A stretch of 48,808 nucleotides of DNA from assembly GCA_002753395.1 (NCBI GenBank), contig PEAB01000017.1, forward strand, positions 1 through 48,808. Reading direction: 5' to 3'. The stretch comes from Nitrospirae bacterium MYbinv3 (GTDB lineage: Bacteria > Nitrospirota > Thermodesulfovibrionia > Thermodesulfovibrionales > Magnetobacteriaceae). The position numbers and the translations under genes are program-made. Each line of letters begins with the position of its first letter. The first letter of the stretch is position 1. The notes below the pieces were generated by a model. The model searched no databases, was not told the origin of the DNA, and saw nothing but the letters and a program-made list of their open reading frames with translations. Shown in pieces: positions 8,663-17,176 of this stretch.

Positions 8663-10027
8663 ATGAAAGATTTTGTACGTGGGCAAAAATCAAAACTATC
8701 TGATATAGCCACCTCACAACAACTAATAATCGCCCTAAGCTGTATCAACAGCGCTAACGCCGCCTTGGACGTTAGTTGCTTCGGTCTGGATGCCAACGAC
8801 AAACTCTCCGACGACAGATACCTCATCTTCTATAACCAGAAATCCTCTCCATGCGGCTCAATATCGGCAATCGGTCAAGAAGGTGACTACATCGAGAGAT
8901 TCAACATAGACCTAAGTAAACTCCCATTGTATATAAAAAAGCTCGTCTTTGTGATGACCATAGACGGCAGCGCTGTGATGTCGCAGATCAAAAGCGGTAG
9001 ACTCAGCATCATTGAATCTGGCATCGAGATGGCGAAATTCCAATTCGAGGGGGCCGATTTTGCCTCAGAGAAGGCGCTCATTATCGCCGAGCTTTACTTT
9101 AAAGACTTCTGGCGCTTTACCGCCGTGGGTCAGGGATTCAACGGTGGTCTGAGCGCCCTCTTGTCCCACTTCGGCGGCACAGAGACCTCTACCCCGCCTC
9201 AGCCGCAAAAAGAAAGTGCCAGCGGGACACAGATGGAGTCCAAAAGGGTCTCATTGGAGAAAAAGATAGCCGAAAAGGCCCCTCAACTGGTATCCCTCGT
9301 CAAGACCGCTCAGGTGTCGCTGCAAAAACACAACCTAACCCAACATACGGCAAAGGTCGCCCTCTGCCTTGACATCTCCGCCTCAATGAGCGCCCTATAC
9401 AGCTCTGGGAAGATGCAAACCCTAGCTGAGCGGGTACTAGCCCTAGGCTGCAACTTCGATGACGACGGCTCTATTGACATGTTCCTCTTTGGCGAACAAC
9501 CTCACGCTGTGGGTCAGTTCGGTATCGACAACTTCAACGGCTTTATAAAACAACTACTAAGAAACTACCCCTTGGAAGGCGGAACATATTACGGCAGGGT
9601 GATGAAGGTCATAAGAAACTTCTACTTTCCTGATGCAAGGGGCGATAAACGGACGTCTGCCGTTATTGCAGAGAAGCCCGTGTATGTGATGTTTGTAACC
9701 GACGGAGCCACCGCTGACCAGAGCGCGACTGAGGAGCAGCTCAGGTGGTCATCCTATGAACCAATATTCTGGCAGTTTATGGCAATTGGCAAGTCAAAGA
9801 AGGACGTAAAAAAGACCGGTATAAAGGGCTGGTTTCAAAGCGTTAGCGCCAGTGACTTTGCGTTCTTGGAAAACCTCGATACGCTGAGCGGCCGTTACGT
9901 GGATAACGCCAACTTTTTCAGCGTAGAAGACCCGCAGCATATAAGCGACAACGAGTTGTATGACCTCCTGATGGCGGAATATCCAGCGTGGCTTAAACTT
10001 GCAAAAGAAAAAAGACTTTTATATTGA
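8663..10027 (+). CDS. TerF-like protein: TerD domain plus VWA domain
   Basis: A 454-residue soluble protein. Residues about 15-175 form a TerD fold (NAALDVSCFGLDANDKL, FWRFTAVGQGFNGGL). The usual Ca-binding GDNxTGxGxGDDE is reduced to AIGQEGDYIERF, so calcium binding is doubtful. Residues about 230-430 form a von Willebrand factor A domain with the MIDAS motif D237-I-S-A-S (CLDISASMS), LEGGTYYG and FVTDGAT. TerF/TerY-type VWA proteins act in Ter chemical-stress and phage-response assemblies. AGGAGG sits 8 bases before ATG 8663; another ATG at 8659 opens only a 14-codon frame. First gene of a four-gene cluster. Confidence 0.88.
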   Translation: MKDFVRGQKSKLSDIATSQQLIIALSCINSANAALDVSCFGLDANDKLSDDRYLIFYNQKSSPCGSISAIGQEGDYIERFNIDLSKLPLYIKKLVFVMTIDGSAVMSQIKSGRLSIIESGIEMAKFQFEGADFASEKALIIAELYFKDFWRFTAVGQGFNGGLSALLSHFGGTETSTPPQPQKESASGTQMESKRVSLEKKIAEKAPQLVSLVKTAQVSLQKHNLTQHTAKVALCLDISASMSALYSSGKMQTLAERVLALGCNFDDDGSIDMFLFGEQPHAVGQFGIDNFNGFIKQLLRNYPLEGGTYYGRVMKVIRNFYFPDARGDKRTSAVIAEKPVYVMFVTDGATADQSATEEQLRWSSYEPIFWQFMAIGKSKKDVKKTGIKGWFQSVSASDFAFLENLDTLSGRYVDNANFFSVEDPQHISDNELYDLLMAEYPAWLKLAKEKRLLY

Positions 10028-10064
10028 AGCCTCATAACAAAATAGAAATAAAGGGAGTGTATGT

Positions 10065-10802
10065 ATGCCTGAGTTTCAAGTAGTAGGAAATGTGGATCCC
10101 TTTTTGCTCGTAACGCTTAAAAAGGGAGAACGCATCTATGCCGAGTCCGATGCGATGGTCACCATGGATGCCGTCTTAGAGCTTAAGGGCAAGATGTCGG
10201 GAGGCTTCTTTGGCTCTCTGGCAAGGAAGTTGACAGCGGGTGAGTCCTTCTTTCAGCAGTCGCTTGAGGCCAACCACGGCGAGGGCCAGGCGCTGTTCTC
10301 TCCAATCCTCCCCGGTGATATCGAGATCCTTGACATCGGTGGAAATCAGTACCGCTTAAACGACGGCGCCTTTGTTGCCGCCACGGACGATGTACAGATA
10401 AGCGTAAAGACCCAGGGTATAGGCAAGGCCATATTTGGCGGGACAGGCGGGTTGTTTATCATGGAGACCTCAGGGCAGGGAAAACTGGCAGTGTCAGGGT
10501 TTGGGGCTATGTTTGGCTTGGACGTTAAACGTGGCTCAGACGTTATTGTGGACAACTTTCACGTTGTAGCATGGGACAGGAACCTCAAATACGAAATAAG
10601 TCTTTCCACGTCCAAGGGCGGTTTCTTTAGCAACCTGGTTGGCAGCGTGACAACCGGTGAGGGGATAGTCAACCGGTTCAGTGGAGATGGGAAGGTCTAC
10701 GTGTGCTCCCGTAATCGCGGAGGTTTTCTCAGTTGGATAGCATCCAGTCTGCCGGGGGCTCAAAACAGGAACAACACAAGCAGTAGTAGAAACATCATTT
10801 AG
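10065..10802 (+). CDS. AIM24 family protein
   Basis: A 245-residue beta-rich protein of the AIM24/TIGR00266 family, with repeated glycine-rich strands: KMSGGFFGSLARKLTAGESFF, GGTGGLFIMETSGQGKLAVSG, and TSKGGFFSNLVGSVTTGEGIV. In bacteria these proteins are often neighbours of TerD genes, and their biochemical role is unknown; the yeast namesake is mitochondrial. No signal peptide or transmembrane helix is seen. A GGGAG lies before the ATG. The next gene starts 10 bases after its stop, so these form an operon. Confidence 0.85.
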   Translation: MPEFQVVGNVDPFLLVTLKKGERIYAESDAMVTMDAVLELKGKMSGGFFGSLARKLTAGESFFQQSLEANHGEGQALFSPILPGDIEILDIGGNQYRLNDGAFVAATDDVQISVKTQGIGKAIFGGTGGLFIMETSGQGKLAVSGFGAMFGLDVKRGSDVIVDNFHVVAWDRNLKYEISLSTSKGGFFSNLVGSVTTGEGIVNRFSGDGKVYVCSRNRGGFLSWIASSLPGAQNRNNTSSSRNII

Positions 10803-10812
10803 GAGATGTATT

Positions 10813-11394
10813 ATGGCAGTTAGTCTTTCCAAAGGACAGCAGATATCGTTAGAGAAGGAGGCCGGGGGCAGACTCACAAAGGTGATAATGGGGCTTGGCT
10901 GGGACGTCAAGAAATCAAAGGGATTCTTAGGATTTGGGCAAAAAACCAAACAGATTGATCTTGATGCCTCCTGCGTCCTCTTTGACGAGGGCGGCGCACA
11001 GGTAGATGAGGTGTGGTTTAAGCAGCTAAAGAGCAAGAATGGCAGCATTACCCACACGGGTGACAACCGCACAGGTGCTGGTGAAGGTGATGACGAGCAG
11101 ATAATCGTTGATCTCACAAATGTACCTTCAAACGTCAAGACGCTGATGTTTGTGGTCAATAGCTTCACGGGTCAGAGTTTCAATGAGATAGAGAACGCCT
11201 TTTGCAGAGCTGTAGATCAACAGACCGGTAAAGAGATTGCCCGTTTCAATCTGAGTTCACAGGGGTCTCATACTGCACTGATTATGGCAAAGGTCTACCG
11301 TCATAGCGGGGAGTGGAAGATGCAGGCTATTGGCGAAAATGCAAGCGGACGCACGTTCAAGGACTTGATGCCCGTTATGCGTCAACATCTCTAA
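10813..11394 (+). CDS. TerD-family protein, TerZ-like
   Basis: A 193-residue TerD-fold protein. It has MAVSLSKGQQISLEKE, GLGWDVKK, the KGFLGFGQK insertion, QIDLDASCVLFD, VWFKQLKSKNGSI and the Ca-binding [14 protein letters not shown]. The FLGFG insertion and VWFKQLKS wording match TerZ more than TerD or TerE. These proteins bind calcium and belong to the Ter stress system (tellurite, phage, colicin phenotypes in other bacteria). Here it lies between AIM24 and a second TerD paralogue. GGAG precedes the ATG by about 8 bases. Confidence 0.88.
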   Translation: MAVSLSKGQQISLEKEAGGRLTKVIMGLGWDVKKSKGFLGFGQKTKQIDLDASCVLFDEGGAQVDEVWFKQLKSKNGSITHTGDNRTGAGEGDDEQIIVDLTNVPSNVKTLMFVVNSFTGQSFNEIENAFCRAVDQQTGKEIARFNLSSQGSHTALIMAKVYRHSGEWKMQAIGENASGRTFKDLMPVMRQHL

Positions 11395-11454
11395 ACGTCG
11401 TTTAAGACAAGGTAATATAAAAACATCTGTACTAAATAAAATGGAGGTTTTACA

Positions 11455-12033
11455 ATGGCTATTAGTCTTACAAAAGGTAGTAATGTTTCCTTAACGAAAA
11501 CCGATCCAAATTTAAAGAAGCTGGCTGTCGGTCTTGGATGGGACTCCCGTATCACTGATGGTTCAGCTTTTGACTTGGACGCCAGTGTCTATTTGCTCAA
11601 CGCCAGCGGGAAGGTGCGCAGTGACAGCGACTTCATATTTTTCAATAATCTCAAGTCTCCAGAGGGAGCTATAGAGCATATGGGGGATAACCTTACAGGG
11701 GCCGGTGAGGGCGATGACGAGATGGTGAAAGTAGACTTAGACAAAGTCCCTGTCGATGTATCAAAAGTGGTATTTGGTGTTACAATCTACGACGCAGATA
11801 AGCGTAAACAGAACTTCGGTATGGTCCGCAACGCCTTTATTCGTATCGTTAATCAGGATGATAGTAAAGAGGTTGCCCGCTACGACCTCTCCGAGGACTA
11901 TAGCACGGAGACAGCCATGCTCTTTGGCGAACTGTACAGACACAACAACGAATGGAAATTCAAGGCCATAGGCGAAGGGTTCTCTGGAGGCCACGCAGCA
12001 ATGGCAAATAGCTACGGCGTTAACGTCGGCTAA
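11455..12033 (+). CDS. TerD-family protein, TerD/TerE-like
   Basis: A 192-residue protein with [61 protein letters not shown] and the C-terminal [19 protein letters not shown]. All Ca-binding residues of the TerD motif are intact. Last gene of the cluster, with a GGAGG ribosome binding site and a 60-base gap from the TerZ-like gene. No TerC membrane protein, TerA or TerB is in the window, so a complete tellurite operon is not shown. Confidence 0.9.
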
Positions 12034-12348: not shown

Positions 12349-13944
12349 ATGAGTGACACCAGCATTATAGTCATAGACGATGATAAGAATAACTCCCAGC
12401 AGATAAGTGAAATATTAAGGCAGGAAGGTTATACAGTCTACAATACCACGACTAAAGCCGAGTCTGTAGCTCAGGTGAAAAAGGGGGCGCCTGGACTGGT
12501 GTTTGTTAAGTCGATGTTAATGGATGCAAGCGGGTATGAGATCATCAGAGATATAAGAAGCACACACCCTGATATACCATTTATCATGCTCACCGAGATT
12601 GACAAGAAATACGATGACCGGTATAGGACTATCTATAAGATCGTCGATACCGTCAAGATACCTGTGGAAAGGGATGAGCTTTTAGCTAAGACCAGGGCCC
12701 ACATCGTTTATGCAGATGAACCTCTGAGCGAAACCGCCTCCTTCGACTTCGATAAAACTGATCTTATCGCAGAAAAGGAACCTCAAAAGCCTGAGCCTCC
12801 TAAATATGAGCGTGAACAAGAAGATGAACAAGACAATAAACAAGAAGAGCTGGCTGATACTCTTGGGTACGGTAAACATAAAAGTGATAGGGGTGGGCTG
12901 TTTGAGTTAGAGGAGGTAGAGCTTCAGAAGGACCCTGACATGGAGGAATTTGACCAAGACACTGAAATACTTGATGAAGTCCCAATGGAAGACTACCCTA
13001 AAGCCGAGGAGAAACCCGAATTTGCCAATCTACGAAAAAGGGCCTCAAGTTCCGATTTCGAAGAGGAGATAAAGCGCCAAAAGAAACCATACACAGAGGA
13101 TATAACCACTATTGAACCTGACGAAGAGGAGTTTATAAGGTCTTTAAAAGAGAAAAACGATAAACGGAAAAAAATAATTGTTGGATTAGCCGCGGCAGTT
13201 TTCCTTGTAGTGTTGAGTGTGGTATACCTGTTTGGAGTCAAAGGCAAATCTACAAAAACCTCAAAATCTCTCATTGCGCAAAAAGGCAAACCAGCAGTCA
13301 TGTCGCCTGTGGTAAAGGTCTCGCCTCCACCAACTCCGCTCCCTACTGTGCCGTCTGCTGTCGTTGAACCCACGCCTCTGCCGTTGAAACAGGTTTCTCC
13401 AGAGCCGCCTCAGCATATTACACCTGAATATGTAAAACCGGAAGAGGTCAAGCCCGACAAAAATGAGTTAACTGCAAAGGCACAACGACCACAACACAAG
13501 GAAAAGCCTGCAAAGAAATCTCCTAAACCCCATAATGTACCTGTAGAAAAAGCCGCCAAGTCTAGCGAAGAGGCAGTTGATGCAAAAGGGTCAAAGGCAC
13601 ACAAAGAGGTCAGGGCTGCAAAGGAGGTCAAACCGGCAAAAGCAGTAAAGTTGGCCAAGAAGGAGGAGAGAGAGACGCCAGTTGCGCCTGAAAAATCTTC
13701 TAAAGAGGCTTTCTCTATACAGCTAGGCTCCTTTGAAGACCCAGCAAATGCCAAACGATTAACGGAGTCGCTTAAGAAAGATGGCTTTAATGCCTTTGTC
13801 AAGGAATACCCCGGACAGTCAGGGCGAAATGTTACAACTCATAAAGTGTTTGTAGGGCGTTATGAAAACAAGACAGACGCTCTTAAGACGATGAAAAAGC
13901 TGAGAGATTCAAGAAAAGTGGACGTGATCCTTAGAAAGATCTGA
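12349..13944 (+). CDS. Pseudo-receiver, transmembrane, SPOR domain protein
   Basis: A 531-residue protein with an unusual order of domains. Residues 1-125 form a response-regulator receiver with the acidic DDD (10-12) and a late lysine (VKIP). In VFVKSMLMDASG the phospho-acceptor aspartate position is K54, so it cannot be phosphorylated normally. A long acidic, low-complexity region follows, then basic KRKK and one TM helix at about 275-297. A Pro/Lys/Ala-rich linker comes next, then a SPOR domain (about 454-531; FSIQLGSFEDPANAKRL...KVFVGRYENKTDA), which binds denuded peptidoglycan glycan strands. The topology implied is a cytoplasmic receiver and a periplasmic SPOR. GGAG precedes the ATG. 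Confidence 0.85.
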   Translation: MSDTSIIVIDDDKNNSQQISEILRQEGYTVYNTTTKAESVAQVKKGAPGLVFVKSMLMDASGYEIIRDIRSTHPDIPFIMLTEIDKKYDDRYRTIYKIVDTVKIPVERDELLAKTRAHIVYADEPLSETASFDFDKTDLIAEKEPQKPEPPKYEREQEDEQDNKQEELADTLGYGKHKSDRGGLFELEEVELQKDPDMEEFDQDTEILDEVPMEDYPKAEEKPEFANLRKRASSSDFEEEIKRQKKPYTEDITTIEPDEEEFIRSLKEKNDKRKKIIVGLAAAVFLVVLSVVYLFGVKGKSTKTSKSLIAQKGKPAVMSPVVKVSPPPTPLPTVPSAVVEPTPLPLKQVSPEPPQHITPEYVKPEEVKPDKNELTAKAQRPQHKEKPAKKSPKPHNVPVEKAAKSSEEAVDAKGSKAHKEVRAAKEVKPAKAVKLAKKEERETPVAPEKSSKEAFSIQLGSFEDPANAKRLTESLKKDGFNAFVKEYPGQSGRNVTTHKVFVGRYENKTDALKTMKKLRDSRKVDVILRKI

Positions 13945-13982: not shown

Positions 13983-15116
13983 GTGTCAACTGAAAGGTAT
14001 TTATTAGCACAAGGGTGTTGCTTAAAATTGATTGAAACACCGTGTGTCTATCGTATCGGTAGTGATGATCTGTATGAAGTTGACAACAAAGCTTTTGAGT
14101 TTTTAACAAGGGCTGCCTCTCCTGAAGGAGCCTTAAGTGGTAATAGCGAGTTCGTTGAATTTTGCATACAAGAAGGCATCCTAACTCAGAACTCTCAACC
14201 ATGTAAAAGACCCGTTATTGCACAATCACCGCTGCCATCCCTAAGATACCTTGAACTTCAGATCACCGATGAATGTAATCTGAGCTGCAAGCACTGCTAC
14301 ATTGGGGCGTCTCATCATATTAGAATGGATATTGAGCGGATATCAGCGGTTCTAATGGAGTTTGAGGATATGCAGGGGCTAAGGGTGTTGATTACTGGCG
14401 GTGAGCCGACAATGCATCCGGATTTCTTGAGACTCAATGAAATGCTTCCTCAGTTTAGCCTTAGAAAACTCTTGTTTACAAACGGTCTGTTGTTGGACAG
14501 CCATATGCTAGATATTTTAAACGTAGATGAGGTAGTAATAAGTGTGGATGGAATGCAAAACGGACATGAGACGTTAAGGGGTACAGATACGTTTAGCAGG
14601 ACTATTAAGGCCATCGAGGCCGCTATCAGGAAGGGGTTTGACACGTCTGTCTCAACGATGATACATGCCTCAAACGTGGATGAATTTGACCAGATGCAGC
14701 AGATGTTTATAGATATGGGCGTCAAGGATTGGACGGTCGACGTTGCCGTTGTTGCCGGTAACCTTAAGCAGCATTCATTACTAAAGGTATCACCGATAAC
14801 GGGGGGGAGATTGTTGAATTACGGTTTTGGTGGTGAGATACATGGCGGTCATAGCGAATATGGATGCGGCTATCATTTAATGTCCGTTTTAGCAGATGGC
14901 AGGGCAGCCAAATGCGCCTTTTATGCCGAACAACCGGTGGGCAGGATAGAGGAGGGTCTCCAGACTTGCTGGGAGCGCGTTAAACCCATACCTTTAGCCA
15001 TTCTTAAATGCGACTGTGATGTAAAACTAATATGCAGAGGTGGGTGTCGGTACAGGGCTGCAAACTTTGGTGACCCGCTCGGTAAAGATTTCTACAGGTG
15101 TCACGCTAATCTATAA
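13983..15116 (+). CDS. Radical SAM/SPASM protein with PqqD-like N-terminus
   Basis: A 377-residue enzyme. Residues 10-70 (VYRIGSDDLYEVDNKAFEFL...FVEFCIQEGIL) resemble a PqqD-type RiPP recognition element. The radical SAM core has C98-xxx-C102-xx-C105 (ECNLSCKHCY) and ITGGEPTMHPDF. The C-terminal quarter is Cys-rich (GCGYH, KCAFYAEQ, KCDCDVKLICRGGC, FYRCHANL), as in SPASM domains that carry auxiliary iron-sulfur clusters. Such enzymes typically modify ribosomal peptides, for example by forming Cys-to-carbon thioether links. Start is GTG. The neighbouring short frame at 15291-15365 is a possible substrate. An alternative role as an enzyme-maturase (anSME-like) cannot be excluded. Confidence 0.85.
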   Translation: MSTERYLLAQGCCLKLIETPCVYRIGSDDLYEVDNKAFEFLTRAASPEGALSGNSEFVEFCIQEGILTQNSQPCKRPVIAQSPLPSLRYLELQITDECNLSCKHCYIGASHHIRMDIERISAVLMEFEDMQGLRVLITGGEPTMHPDFLRLNEMLPQFSLRKLLFTNGLLLDSHMLDILNVDEVVISVDGMQNGHETLRGTDTFSRTIKAIEAAIRKGFDTSVSTMIHASNVDEFDQMQQMFIDMGVKDWTVDVAVVAGNLKQHSLLKVSPITGGRLLNYGFGGEIHGGHSEYGCGYHLMSVLADGRAAKCAFYAEQPVGRIEEGLQTCWERVKPIPLAILKCDCDVKLICRGGCRYRAANFGDPLGKDFYRCHANL

Positions 15117-15125
15117 CACGCAAAA

Positions 15126-15229
15126 TGGTAGTCCTGCACAAGTAGTGGTGACATTAAGCTTAACACCCTCCCCTAACCCCTCCCATCAAGGGAGGGGAAT
15201 TGAATATCACTACCTCTGCAGGACTACCA
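15126..15229. repeat. Long inverted repeat (MITE-like or structured RNA)
   Basis: TGGTAGTCCTGCA (15126-15138) is matched by TGCAGGACTACCA (15217-15229), a perfect 13-base inverted repeat. Pairing continues inwards imperfectly (AGTAGTGGTGA with TATCACTACCT). A central hairpin CCCCTCCC/GGGAGGGG lies at 15177-15197. It begins 9 bases after the radical SAM stop and ends 62 bases before the short Cys-rich frame, so it may be a mobile element or act on their shared transcript. Confidence 0.75.
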
Positions 15230-15290
15230 GTTTCCCGTACTAAATTTTATAATTTATGTTACAATTAAAGATAGATTATTATGAAGAAAG

Positions 15291-15365
15291 GTGGTGGAAA
15301 AGGTGACGATAAAAAAAGTAGCGAAGAAGGCAGCTATTACTTGCAAATGTAAAGGGTCTTGTTAG
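15291..15365 (+). CDS. Candidate Cys-rich RiPP precursor peptide
   Basis: A short frame starting at GTG 15291 (24 residues) or, better, GTG 15303 (20 residues). It encodes a basic leader MTIKKVAKKAA followed by ITCKCKGSC and a TAG stop. The GTG at 15303 has AGGTGGTG 6 bases upstream, a good ribosome binding site. The C-terminal C-x-C-x3-C core, Lys-rich leader and position 190 bases after a radical SAM/SPASM gene fit a modified-peptide precursor. The length is small even for RiPPs, and a random frame of this size is not rare, so confidence is limited. The other frame from ATG 15281 has no ribosome binding site. Confidence 0.4.
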   Translation: MVEKVTIKKVAKKAAITCKCKGSC

Positions 15366-15437: not shown

Positions 15438-15457
15438 ATAACCTAATAGAGTTGGTT

Positions 15458-17176
15458 ATGAAAAAAGAAAAGAGATATTATGAGAGATTAGTTAAAAATT
15501 TCTGTGCTTTAGTTACAGTGATTTTAGTATTTATGGCAGCGTCTCTATGCTGTGCTAAAGAAAGCGGGGCATTTTATAAAAAAGCAGCCTATAATTTTAT
15601 GTTAGGCGCCTTAGCAGAGTCTTCAAGGAACTGGGAGGGCGCTTTAAAATATTATAGGGAAGCAATAAAGGAAGACCCTGAATCACCCTATCTGAAGATG
15701 CAGGTAGTGTTGATCCTCTGGCGACAGGGCATGGTAAACGATGCTATCAAGGCCAATAAAGAGATACTAAAGAAAAATCATGCTTACGTGCCAGCCTTAA
15801 AACTTATGGCTGAGATTTACAACTCTCAAAACGATTTTGATAATGCCATAAAGTCTTATGAGAAGATACTTGAACTCAATGTTGATGATAAAGATGCCTA
15901 CGTATACCTTGGGGCAATGTATCTATCAAAACTTGATTATGAAAATGCTGTCAGGGTCTTCTCTGATCTTATTGCCAAAGACCCTGATAATCCTATGGGC
16001 AATTATTACCTCGGTGTGATAGCTACGGAGAAGGACGATCTCAATACAGGCGAGAAGTACATGCGCAAGATTTTAGAGTCTAACCCTGAGTTTGACTCCG
16101 CCTACGTTGCACTTGGGGTTATTGGGGTAAAAAGGGGCAATAAGGAAGAGGCCTTTAGCAATTTAAAAGAAGCTCTAAGGGTAAATCCGCATAATTTAAA
16201 GGCCCGCGAGATGCTCTCGAAGTACTATCTCCTGGATAAGGACTTTGGAAAGGCTGCACAGGAGCTTCAAGAACTAAGTAAAGAACTGCCAGAAAACCTT
16301 GAAATACATCTAAAGCTTGGGCTACTCCATATAGAAAACGGGAATTACGAAAAAGCCATTGAAGAACTCATGATCGTTAAGACAGCTGGTAACAACATAG
16401 CATCACGCTTTTATCTGTCTATAGCGTATGAGGCCATAAAAAAATATGACCTGGCTATAGAAGAGTTAAAACAGATAGTCAATATGGATCCTAAGAACCT
16501 AAATGCCTTTCTAAGACTTGGCTTTCTTTATGCGGAACAAGAAGACTACAGGATGGCCGCCAAATATTATGAAGAGATCCTGTCCTTTGATGAAAGCAAG
16601 CCTGAGTTCTTTTTATACCCGTCGCTGTCATATTCGCACTTGAAAGAATATGACAAGGCAAAGGAATTCCTACTTAAAGGAATTGGGAAGTATCCTAGTG
16701 ACGAGGATTTGTTTTTTAACCTTGCCGTTATATATGAAAAGGAAGGCAACTTCGATGTGATGGTCAAGTATCTTAGAAAGGTGATAGAGTTAAACCCTAA
16801 TCATGCCGAGGCCCTTAACTATCTTGGGTATAGCTACGTGGACAAAGGGCTCAACCTGGATGAGGCCACTGAATTGATAAAAAAAGCCTTAGAAATAAAA
16901 CCCGAGAGCGGCTATATCACAGACAGTCTGGGATGGGCCTATTTTAAAAAGGGCATGTACTCTGAGGCATTGGTTGAGCTGGAGAAGGCCCTCACTCTGG
17001 TTACAGACGACGCCGTACTGTATGATCACCTCGGTGATGTTTATCATGTCCTTGGCATGGAAGAAAAGGCAGAAGAGGCTTGGAAAAAATCTCTTGAGTA
17101 TGTCAAAGAAGATATTGGTCTTGAAGAAAAGGTTAAAGGCAAGATTGAACAACGTCAACATAAAACCAAAAAGTAA
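15458..17176 (+). CDS. Exported tetratricopeptide-repeat protein
   Basis: A 572-residue TPR protein when started at ATG 15458 (MKKEKRYYERLVKN). This follows a hairpin and gives a normal signal sequence (basic start, then CALVTVILVFMAASLCCA). An upstream TTG frame at 15359 overlaps the hairpin and is unlikely. About 14 TPR units follow (for example NAIKSYEKILELNVDDKDAYVYLGAMYLSKLDYENAVRVF, and ALNYLGYSYVDKGLNLDEATELIKKALEIKPESG). This resembles bacterial outer-membrane or periplasmic scaffold TPR proteins. The stop is 24 bases before ispE, so the two may share a transcript. The substrate or partner is unknown. Confidence 0.85.
   Translation: MKKEKRYYERLVKNFCALVTVILVFMAASLCCAKESGAFYKKAAYNFMLGALAESSRNWEGALKYYREAIKEDPESPYLKMQVVLILWRQGMVNDAIKANKEILKKNHAYVPALKLMAEIYNSQNDFDNAIKSYEKILELNVDDKDAYVYLGAMYLSKLDYENAVRVFSDLIAKDPDNPMGNYYLGVIATEKDDLNTGEKYMRKILESNPEFDSAYVALGVIGVKRGNKEEAFSNLKEALRVNPHNLKAREMLSKYYLLDKDFGKAAQELQELSKELPENLEIHLKLGLLHIENGNYEKAIEELMIVKTAGNNIASRFYLSIAYEAIKKYDLAIEELKQIVNMDPKNLNAFLRLGFLYAEQEDYRMAAKYYEEILSFDESKPEFFLYPSLSYSHLKEYDKAKEFLLKGIGKYPSDEDLFFNLAVIYEKEGNFDVMVKYLRKVIELNPNHAEALNYLGYSYVDKGLNLDEATELIKKALEIKPESGYITDSLGWAYFKKGMYSEALVELEKALTLVTDDAVLYDHLGDVYHVLGMEEKAEEAWKKSLEYVKEDIGLEEKVKGKIEQRQHKTKK

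Follow-up and report, generated by a model that had tools for sequence, protein, structure and literature searches.

SkfB, SuiB and CteB are RiPP maturases of the radical-SAM/SPASM class composed of an RRE-like N-terminus, a radical-SAM barrel and SPASM clusters. In the cofactor systems PqqA-PqqD-PqqE and MftA-MftB-MftC the precursor is very short and conserved and is accompanied by an RRE and a SPASM enzyme; the cores of the PQQ and mycofactocin precursors contain Tyr. The motif CxC is a copper-thiolate motif of known metallothioneins. Bufferins and methanobactins are copper-binding RiPPs made by MNIO enzymes, and bufferin precursors carry Sec signal peptides (PMC12452194). Short recognition motifs have been described for other RREs, HIxxI being one example (PMC12710340).

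In the present work we analysed a stretch of 48,808 nucleotides from Nitrospirae bacterium MYbinv3 (hereafter the window), which carries a radical-SAM/SPASM maturase gene followed by a gene for a peptide of 20 amino acids. The two very probably constitute a RiPP system, as the first-pass annotation of this DNA had proposed; co-occurrence, maturase architecture and leader conservation all support that proposal. The maturase gene (13983..15116, + strand) starts with GTG and encodes 377 amino acids; it was identified by Pfam family PF04055, by its orthologues and by an AlphaFold2 model. The peptide gene (15303..15365, + strand) lies 186 bases downstream, counted from the enzyme stop at 15116 to the GTG at 15303. 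Its frame reads (V/M)TIKKVAKKAAITCKCKGSC and then TAG (15363-15365), the whole of 15303-15365 translating as MTIKKVAKKAAITCKCKGSC, and comprises a basic leader (residues 1-13) and the core CKCKGSC (residues 14-20; 15342..15362, + strand). A ribosome-binding site, AGGTGGTG (15289..15296, + strand), is found six bases 5' of the GTG. The earlier annotation was thus right in its coordinates and motifs for both genes, namely GTG 15303, AGGTGGTG six bases before it and a CxCx3C end. A TATAAT at 15248..15253 (+ strand) is a candidate -10 box and putative promoter element of the peptide gene, judged from its sequence and from the consensus TATGATATAAT upstream of the relatives' genes.

The enzyme matches Radical_SAM (PF04055) with E=1.6e-19. 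The three cysteines of the cluster motif C98-x3-C102-x2-C105 (14274..14297, + strand) and the seven of the SPASM region C295-x10-G306-x4-C311 ... C343-x-C345-x5-C351-x3-C355-x17-C373 (14865..15101, + strand) are invariant across 69 aligned orthologues. The latter region follows the SPASM pattern CX9-15GX4C...CX2CX5CX3C...C, but with CxC in place of the textbook CxxC at C343/C345, and the Pfam SPASM profile gave weak matches in only 6 of the 69 orthologues. Modelling by AlphaFold2 with the orthologue alignment yielded a mean pLDDT of 94. In VIA-align, model residues 4-377 were superposed on SuiB (5v1q) over 357 residues with a Z of about 26.2-26.6, and residues 10-360 on SkfB (6efn) with a Z of 26.8; the nearest solved structures were SkfB and SuiB, followed by anSME, CteB, ChlB and PqqE. 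None of the NCBIfam maturase families among the 25 matches listed (WgkB, StsB, PapB, mycofactocin, GeoRSP, ScmE/F and others) reached its cut-off: scores were 49-80 bits against cut-offs of 180-725, the best being 80 bits against 650. Among the plasmid matches with the best coverage are NirJ, MftC and unclassified radical-SAM proteins, 22-26% identical to the enzyme.

The first 78 residues or so (13983..14216, + strand) are predicted to fold into strands 4-8, 12-16, 20-24 and 29-32 and helices 35-44 and 56-63, and would form an RRE domain, an assignment made by fold only, through the alignment with SuiB and SkfB. A PqqD-like, RRE-type N-terminus had been suggested in the first-pass annotation, together with modelling it against such folds. 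The fold part of the suggestion stands, the region being modelled at a pLDDT of about 93 within the whole enzyme, but neither PF05402 nor the Pfam RRE-PqqD profiles matched the N-terminus by sequence, and the 78-residue fragment modelled alone, without an alignment, gave a pLDDT of 53. Among the orthologues, D28 of this domain is invariant and L30, Y31 and D34 are nearly so. Since no Pfam RRE profile matched and no NCBIfam cut-off was reached, we regard the enzyme as a separate family. As a side observation, in 58 of the 67 enzyme orthologues at loci L081-L160 a TATAAT-like box lies no more than 22 bases upstream of the start codon (13.6 in shuffled sequences) and in only 6 of the 67 is there a Shine-Dalgarno-like site, which suggests that the enzyme transcripts may be leaderless.

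The short frame is a genuine conserved gene. A DNA pattern fixing the core (CKCKx[S]C-stop) had one match in the source genome and was positive in 39 of 60 related genomes, with zero matches of the reversed pattern, used as control, in the same 60. The homologous genes have their own start codon, and nearly all are preceded by AAAGGAGGTG-like ribosome-binding sites; among 82 distinct peptide genes, 78 have exactly 20 codons and 4 have 19. This pattern leaves the leader free, so that leader conservation could be assessed independently of the search: over 78 aligned genes the leader has a pN/pS of 0.34 when read in frame, compared with 1.49 and 0.92 when read in the two alternative frames. The strong bias towards synonymous changes speaks against the equality of both kinds of change that the first-pass annotation had named as refuting its proposal.

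Because the core is fixed by the pattern used for co-occurrence, its conservation was re-tested with a second one, which fixed some leader positions, the three cysteines and the stop and left residues 15, 17, 18 and 19 open. In 149 genomes of the order it retrieved 112 distinct sequences, 110 of them intact. K15 and S19 are present in 110/110, residue 17 is K in 85 and H in 25, giving the core CKC[K/H]xSC, and residue 13, likewise not imposed, is Thr in 97. The conserved leader residues are I3-x-K5-[V/I/L]6, which we suggest may resemble in kind RRE recognition motifs such as HIxxI. No match of the precursor was found in Pfam or NCBIfam up to E=10, 20-residue queries being insensitive in profile searches. 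Two decayed copies were also seen (G285:C8:3894-3950 and G053:C228:4243-4299), with a stop in the leader or none after the core; extra copies of the gene thus arise and die.

Enzyme relatives were collected with an alignment query, which gave 290, the best 80 of these 290 being annotated as Nitrospirota or uncultured; a single-sequence query found no relatives in the contig collection. The enzyme occurs once per genome, except for one broken copy counted twice. In 396 Nitrospirota genomes (enzyme threshold E at most 1e-60; core-fixing peptide pattern), the enzyme was present in 118, the peptide in 117 and both in 111 (Fisher 3e-81). When peptide presence was shuffled within families, at most 139 of 169 genomes were concordant, compared with 157 of 169 observed, so that shared ancestry at the family level is insufficient as an explanation. 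The source organism's own family is split, 3 of 13 sampled genomes carrying both genes and 10 neither; the enzyme of the closest enzyme-bearing genome, which matches Candidatus Magnetobacterium casense MYR-1, is 71% identical.

There were 13 discordant genomes, 7 with the enzyme only and 6 with the peptide only. The enzyme lies at a contig end in G070, G089, G094 and G353, the last of which still retains the hairpin leader described below; in G315 the enzyme gene is fragmented, with an enzyme end 5' of each of the two copies of the peptide gene; G054 and G319, with the enzyme and no match to the peptide with Lys at residue 17 (Lys form), carry the form with His at that position (His form); and the match in G345 is due to chance. 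Unexplained are G031, G293, G311 and G396, with the Lys-form peptide and no enzyme found, and G303, with the enzyme and no peptide found. In genomes with the peptide and no enzyme, the peptide may act without it, or the assemblies may be incomplete.

At 54 of the 80 named orthologue loci the peptide gene lies just 3' of the enzyme gene on the same strand; elsewhere it is found at another place in the genome, sometimes far off, and co-occurrence still holds. Conservation of the short frame with the enzyme homologues, which the first-pass annotation had proposed as a check, is therefore borne out, beside the enzyme or away from it. No other gene is conserved with the enzyme at the 80 loci, and beside the pair there is no conserved exporter, peptidase or immunity gene and no conserved signal peptide. 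The cluster of the TPR protein encoded at 15443-17176 recurs in 15 of the 80 loci, sometimes beside an unlinked peptide, and was set aside as a partner and treated as an old neighbour on this account. Other neighbours are noted for the record. The gene at 12349-13944 encodes an uncommon fusion of an N-terminal response-regulator receiver with a C-terminal SPOR domain, and a SPOR-like protein end also lies 5' of the enzyme in G001. By eye, genes at 8663-12033 resemble the TerD family (tellurite resistance/stress) with a von Willebrand-type partner, and a Fe/Mn superoxide dismutase, sometimes with a nitroreductase, was noted at L059:1-3024 and in 13 of the L081-L160 loci; it is close to the pair in 13 loci and also close to an unlinked peptide in G019.

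The His form is a second, unlinked precursor with the same leader and the core CKCHxSC. Of the 33 genomes in which it was found, 30 also carry the enzyme (Fisher 2e-14); G028 and G313 have this peptide and no detected enzyme. As each genome has just one gene for the enzyme, that enzyme would act on both the Lys and the His form. A copper/heavy-metal P-type ATPase, a YHS/heavy-metal-binding protein or a Met-rich secreted protein is encoded within 1.5 kb of 24 of 30 His-form loci, as compared with 1 of 93 Lys-form loci; these neighbours were first flagged by motif, and nine examples were then checked by Pfam. Copper ATPase, heavy-metal-binding and YHS domains were confirmed in examples by Pfam and NCBIfam, and the Met-rich proteins, where tested, matched no family in either. 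Met-rich secreted proteins adjoin the His form at L194:1506-2069, L197:1606-2250, L209:1518-2150 and L219:854-1519. A metal role of the His form is rather likely on this evidence. The Lys form has no copper neighbour, so that the case for a metal link comes from its relationship to the His form, and its chances of a metal role would fall a little short of even.

The first-pass annotation had drawn attention to a structured inverted repeat between the two genes. This repeat (15126-15235) has a 31-base core, CCTCCCCTAACCCCTCCCATCAAGGGAGGGG, of which the source genome holds 68 copies with up to 3 mismatches, and it was not seen in the relatives' downstream stretches that were read; as a dispersed genomic repeat it was rejected as a regulatory part of the system. 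In many other families the Lys-form peptide gene is preceded by a leader RNA of two covarying hairpins with AUGAA-like loops (three hairpins in one family), the second of which covers the ribosome-binding site; examples are L016:1425-1474, L055:1560-1608 and L139:4138-4185, with about 45 more. Among 38 sequences, picked by the loop motif at a fixed place, a choice favouring the loop and not the pairing, pairing holds in 90.8% of cells, compared with 71.5% after shuffling, and 65 cells changed on both sides, against 19; sliding the partner abolishes the signal. The leader RNA has no match in Rfam at the gathering score. It is absent from the source organism's family, and no convincing copy was found in the window.

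Matches to a model of this leader RNA also lie 5' of TonB-dependent receptors in G028, G040 and G047, the last of them a weak match, and 5' of a cytochrome/[NiFe]-hydrogenase-like operon in G363. The RNA stands directly 5' of such receptors in three families (L256:995-1042, L253:2511-2558 and L255:2543-2589), and at L256 and L253 a 9-codon frame ends in a TGATG that overlaps the receptor start. In two genera it lies 3' of a LuxR-type regulator (L258:997-1044 and L254:79-126), and at L258 it is followed by genes for a multihaem cytochrome and for a protein resembling the small subunit of [NiFe]-hydrogenase.

The reading that we favour, with a probability of about 0.6, is that of a RiPP pair in which the leader is bound, the core is modified, the product is an intracellular metal ligand and the His form serves copper export. 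The RRE-like domain would bind the short basic leader through I3, K5 and the hydrophobic residue 6, and the radical-SAM/SPASM part would then modify the core CKC[K/H]xSC by means of its iron-sulphur clusters, most likely by joining one or more Cys sulphurs to a neighbouring residue. The three invariant Cys make a thioether, of the sacti- or ranthipeptide type, a possible linkage among others, and a 20-residue peptide with three Cys might bind metal even without being modified. The product would be a small thiolate ligand for metal, and probably remains intracellular, because the pair comes without an exporter, a protease or a signal peptide. The same enzyme would act on both precursors, the Lys form being the common one. 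For the pair, the recognition of the leader, the type of modification, the product's place in the cell and, above all for the Lys form, the binding of metal are what we infer.

Other readings account for part of these data. Like PqqE and MftC, the enzyme might turn the peptide into a diffusible cofactor or a small molecule bound to a carrier, and not into a metal ligand. PqqE and MftC are distant relatives, and a core near-invariant throughout the phylum with no exporter suits a housekeeping cofactor better than an antibiotic; the core, however, has no aromatic residue except His, unlike the Tyr cores of the PQQ and mycofactocin precursors, the His form lies within copper operons and the system has no linked enzymes dedicated to later cofactor steps, all of which makes this reading unlikely. 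The copper operons, and the CxC motif shared with known metallothioneins, would also fit unmodified mini-metallothioneins, the enzyme acting elsewhere and being merely co-inherited, and the few genomes in which the peptide was detected and the enzyme was not point the same way. Yet the Lys peptide accompanies the enzyme in 111 of 118 genomes, concordance within families is well above that of the shuffles, the architecture of the enzyme is that of a RiPP maturase and no other gene is conserved alongside it, so that such peptides are distinctly improbable as an explanation.

A secreted antimicrobial or signalling peptide of the sacti- or ranthipeptide kind comes to mind since SkfB and CteB, which are related to the enzyme, produce such peptides or have them as substrates; it is made very improbable by the lack of a conserved adjacent exporter, peptidase, immunity gene or signal peptide and by a core nearly constant across the phylum, unlike those of competing antimicrobials. 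The frame could finally be a translated regulatory leader controlling downstream genes, its product being irrelevant, in keeping with its position directly 5' of the TPR gene in several genomes and with the structured RNA 5' of the peptide in other families. But the downstream genes vary between genomes, the amino acids are conserved despite many synonymous changes and the peptide tracks the enzyme rather than any neighbour, and we find a purely regulatory frame barely credible.

The favoured reading, a modified intracellular metal ligand, points to an undescribed, probably metal-handling, modified-peptide system. The first-pass annotation had considered the system possibly undescribed, and the literature searched, with partial coverage, holds no named family or paper that covers the pair. 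With 19-20 residues and a core of 7, the precursor approaches the minimum size and can readily escape gene callers. We know of few RiPPs that belong to the housekeeping equipment of a phylum, as opposed to weapons confined to a lineage, and to our knowledge metal-binding peptides have so far come from MNIO enzymes. If the product binds copper, it would represent a radical-SAM route to metal-binding peptides, and a dedicated metal-handling peptide for anaerobic and magnetotactic Nitrospirota.

Among described systems, SkfB, SuiB and CteB are the best structural matches and share the three-part architecture, and SkfB and CteB also act on Cys-containing substrates. Identity to the three is about 18-24% over the aligned region, and here the substrate has only 20 amino acids, 7 of them forming the core, an exporter and a protease are lacking, and the precursor genes come in two kinds and frequently lie apart from the enzyme gene. 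PqqA-PqqD-PqqE and MftA-MftB-MftC resemble the pair in their very short conserved precursor, their RRE and SPASM enzyme and their housekeeping-like conservation. They differ in that the RRE is fused here, that the core consists of Cys/Lys and not of Glu/Tyr or Val/Tyr, and that no further cofactor genes are found; the enzyme also stays below the mycofactocin equivalog cut-off. GeoRSP and the other NCBIfam radical-SAM/SPASM families belong to the same superfamily, with the enzyme below their cut-offs. Bufferins and methanobactins are likewise Cys-based RiPPs tied to copper homeostasis, as the context of the His form is here, but the enzyme of the present pair is a radical-SAM protein with no MNIO (DUF692), and its peptides, unlike bufferins, carry no signal peptide. 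Tentatively, and at clearly less than even odds, the pair would be the radical-SAM counterpart of the copper-binding RiPPs, in which one maturase arms several unlinked intracellular precursors of 20 residues as metal ligands, with a general Lys form alongside a His form of copper operons, through much of the phylum; in many members the Lys gene would stand under a hairpin RNA that has not been described and is found ahead of TonB receptors as well.
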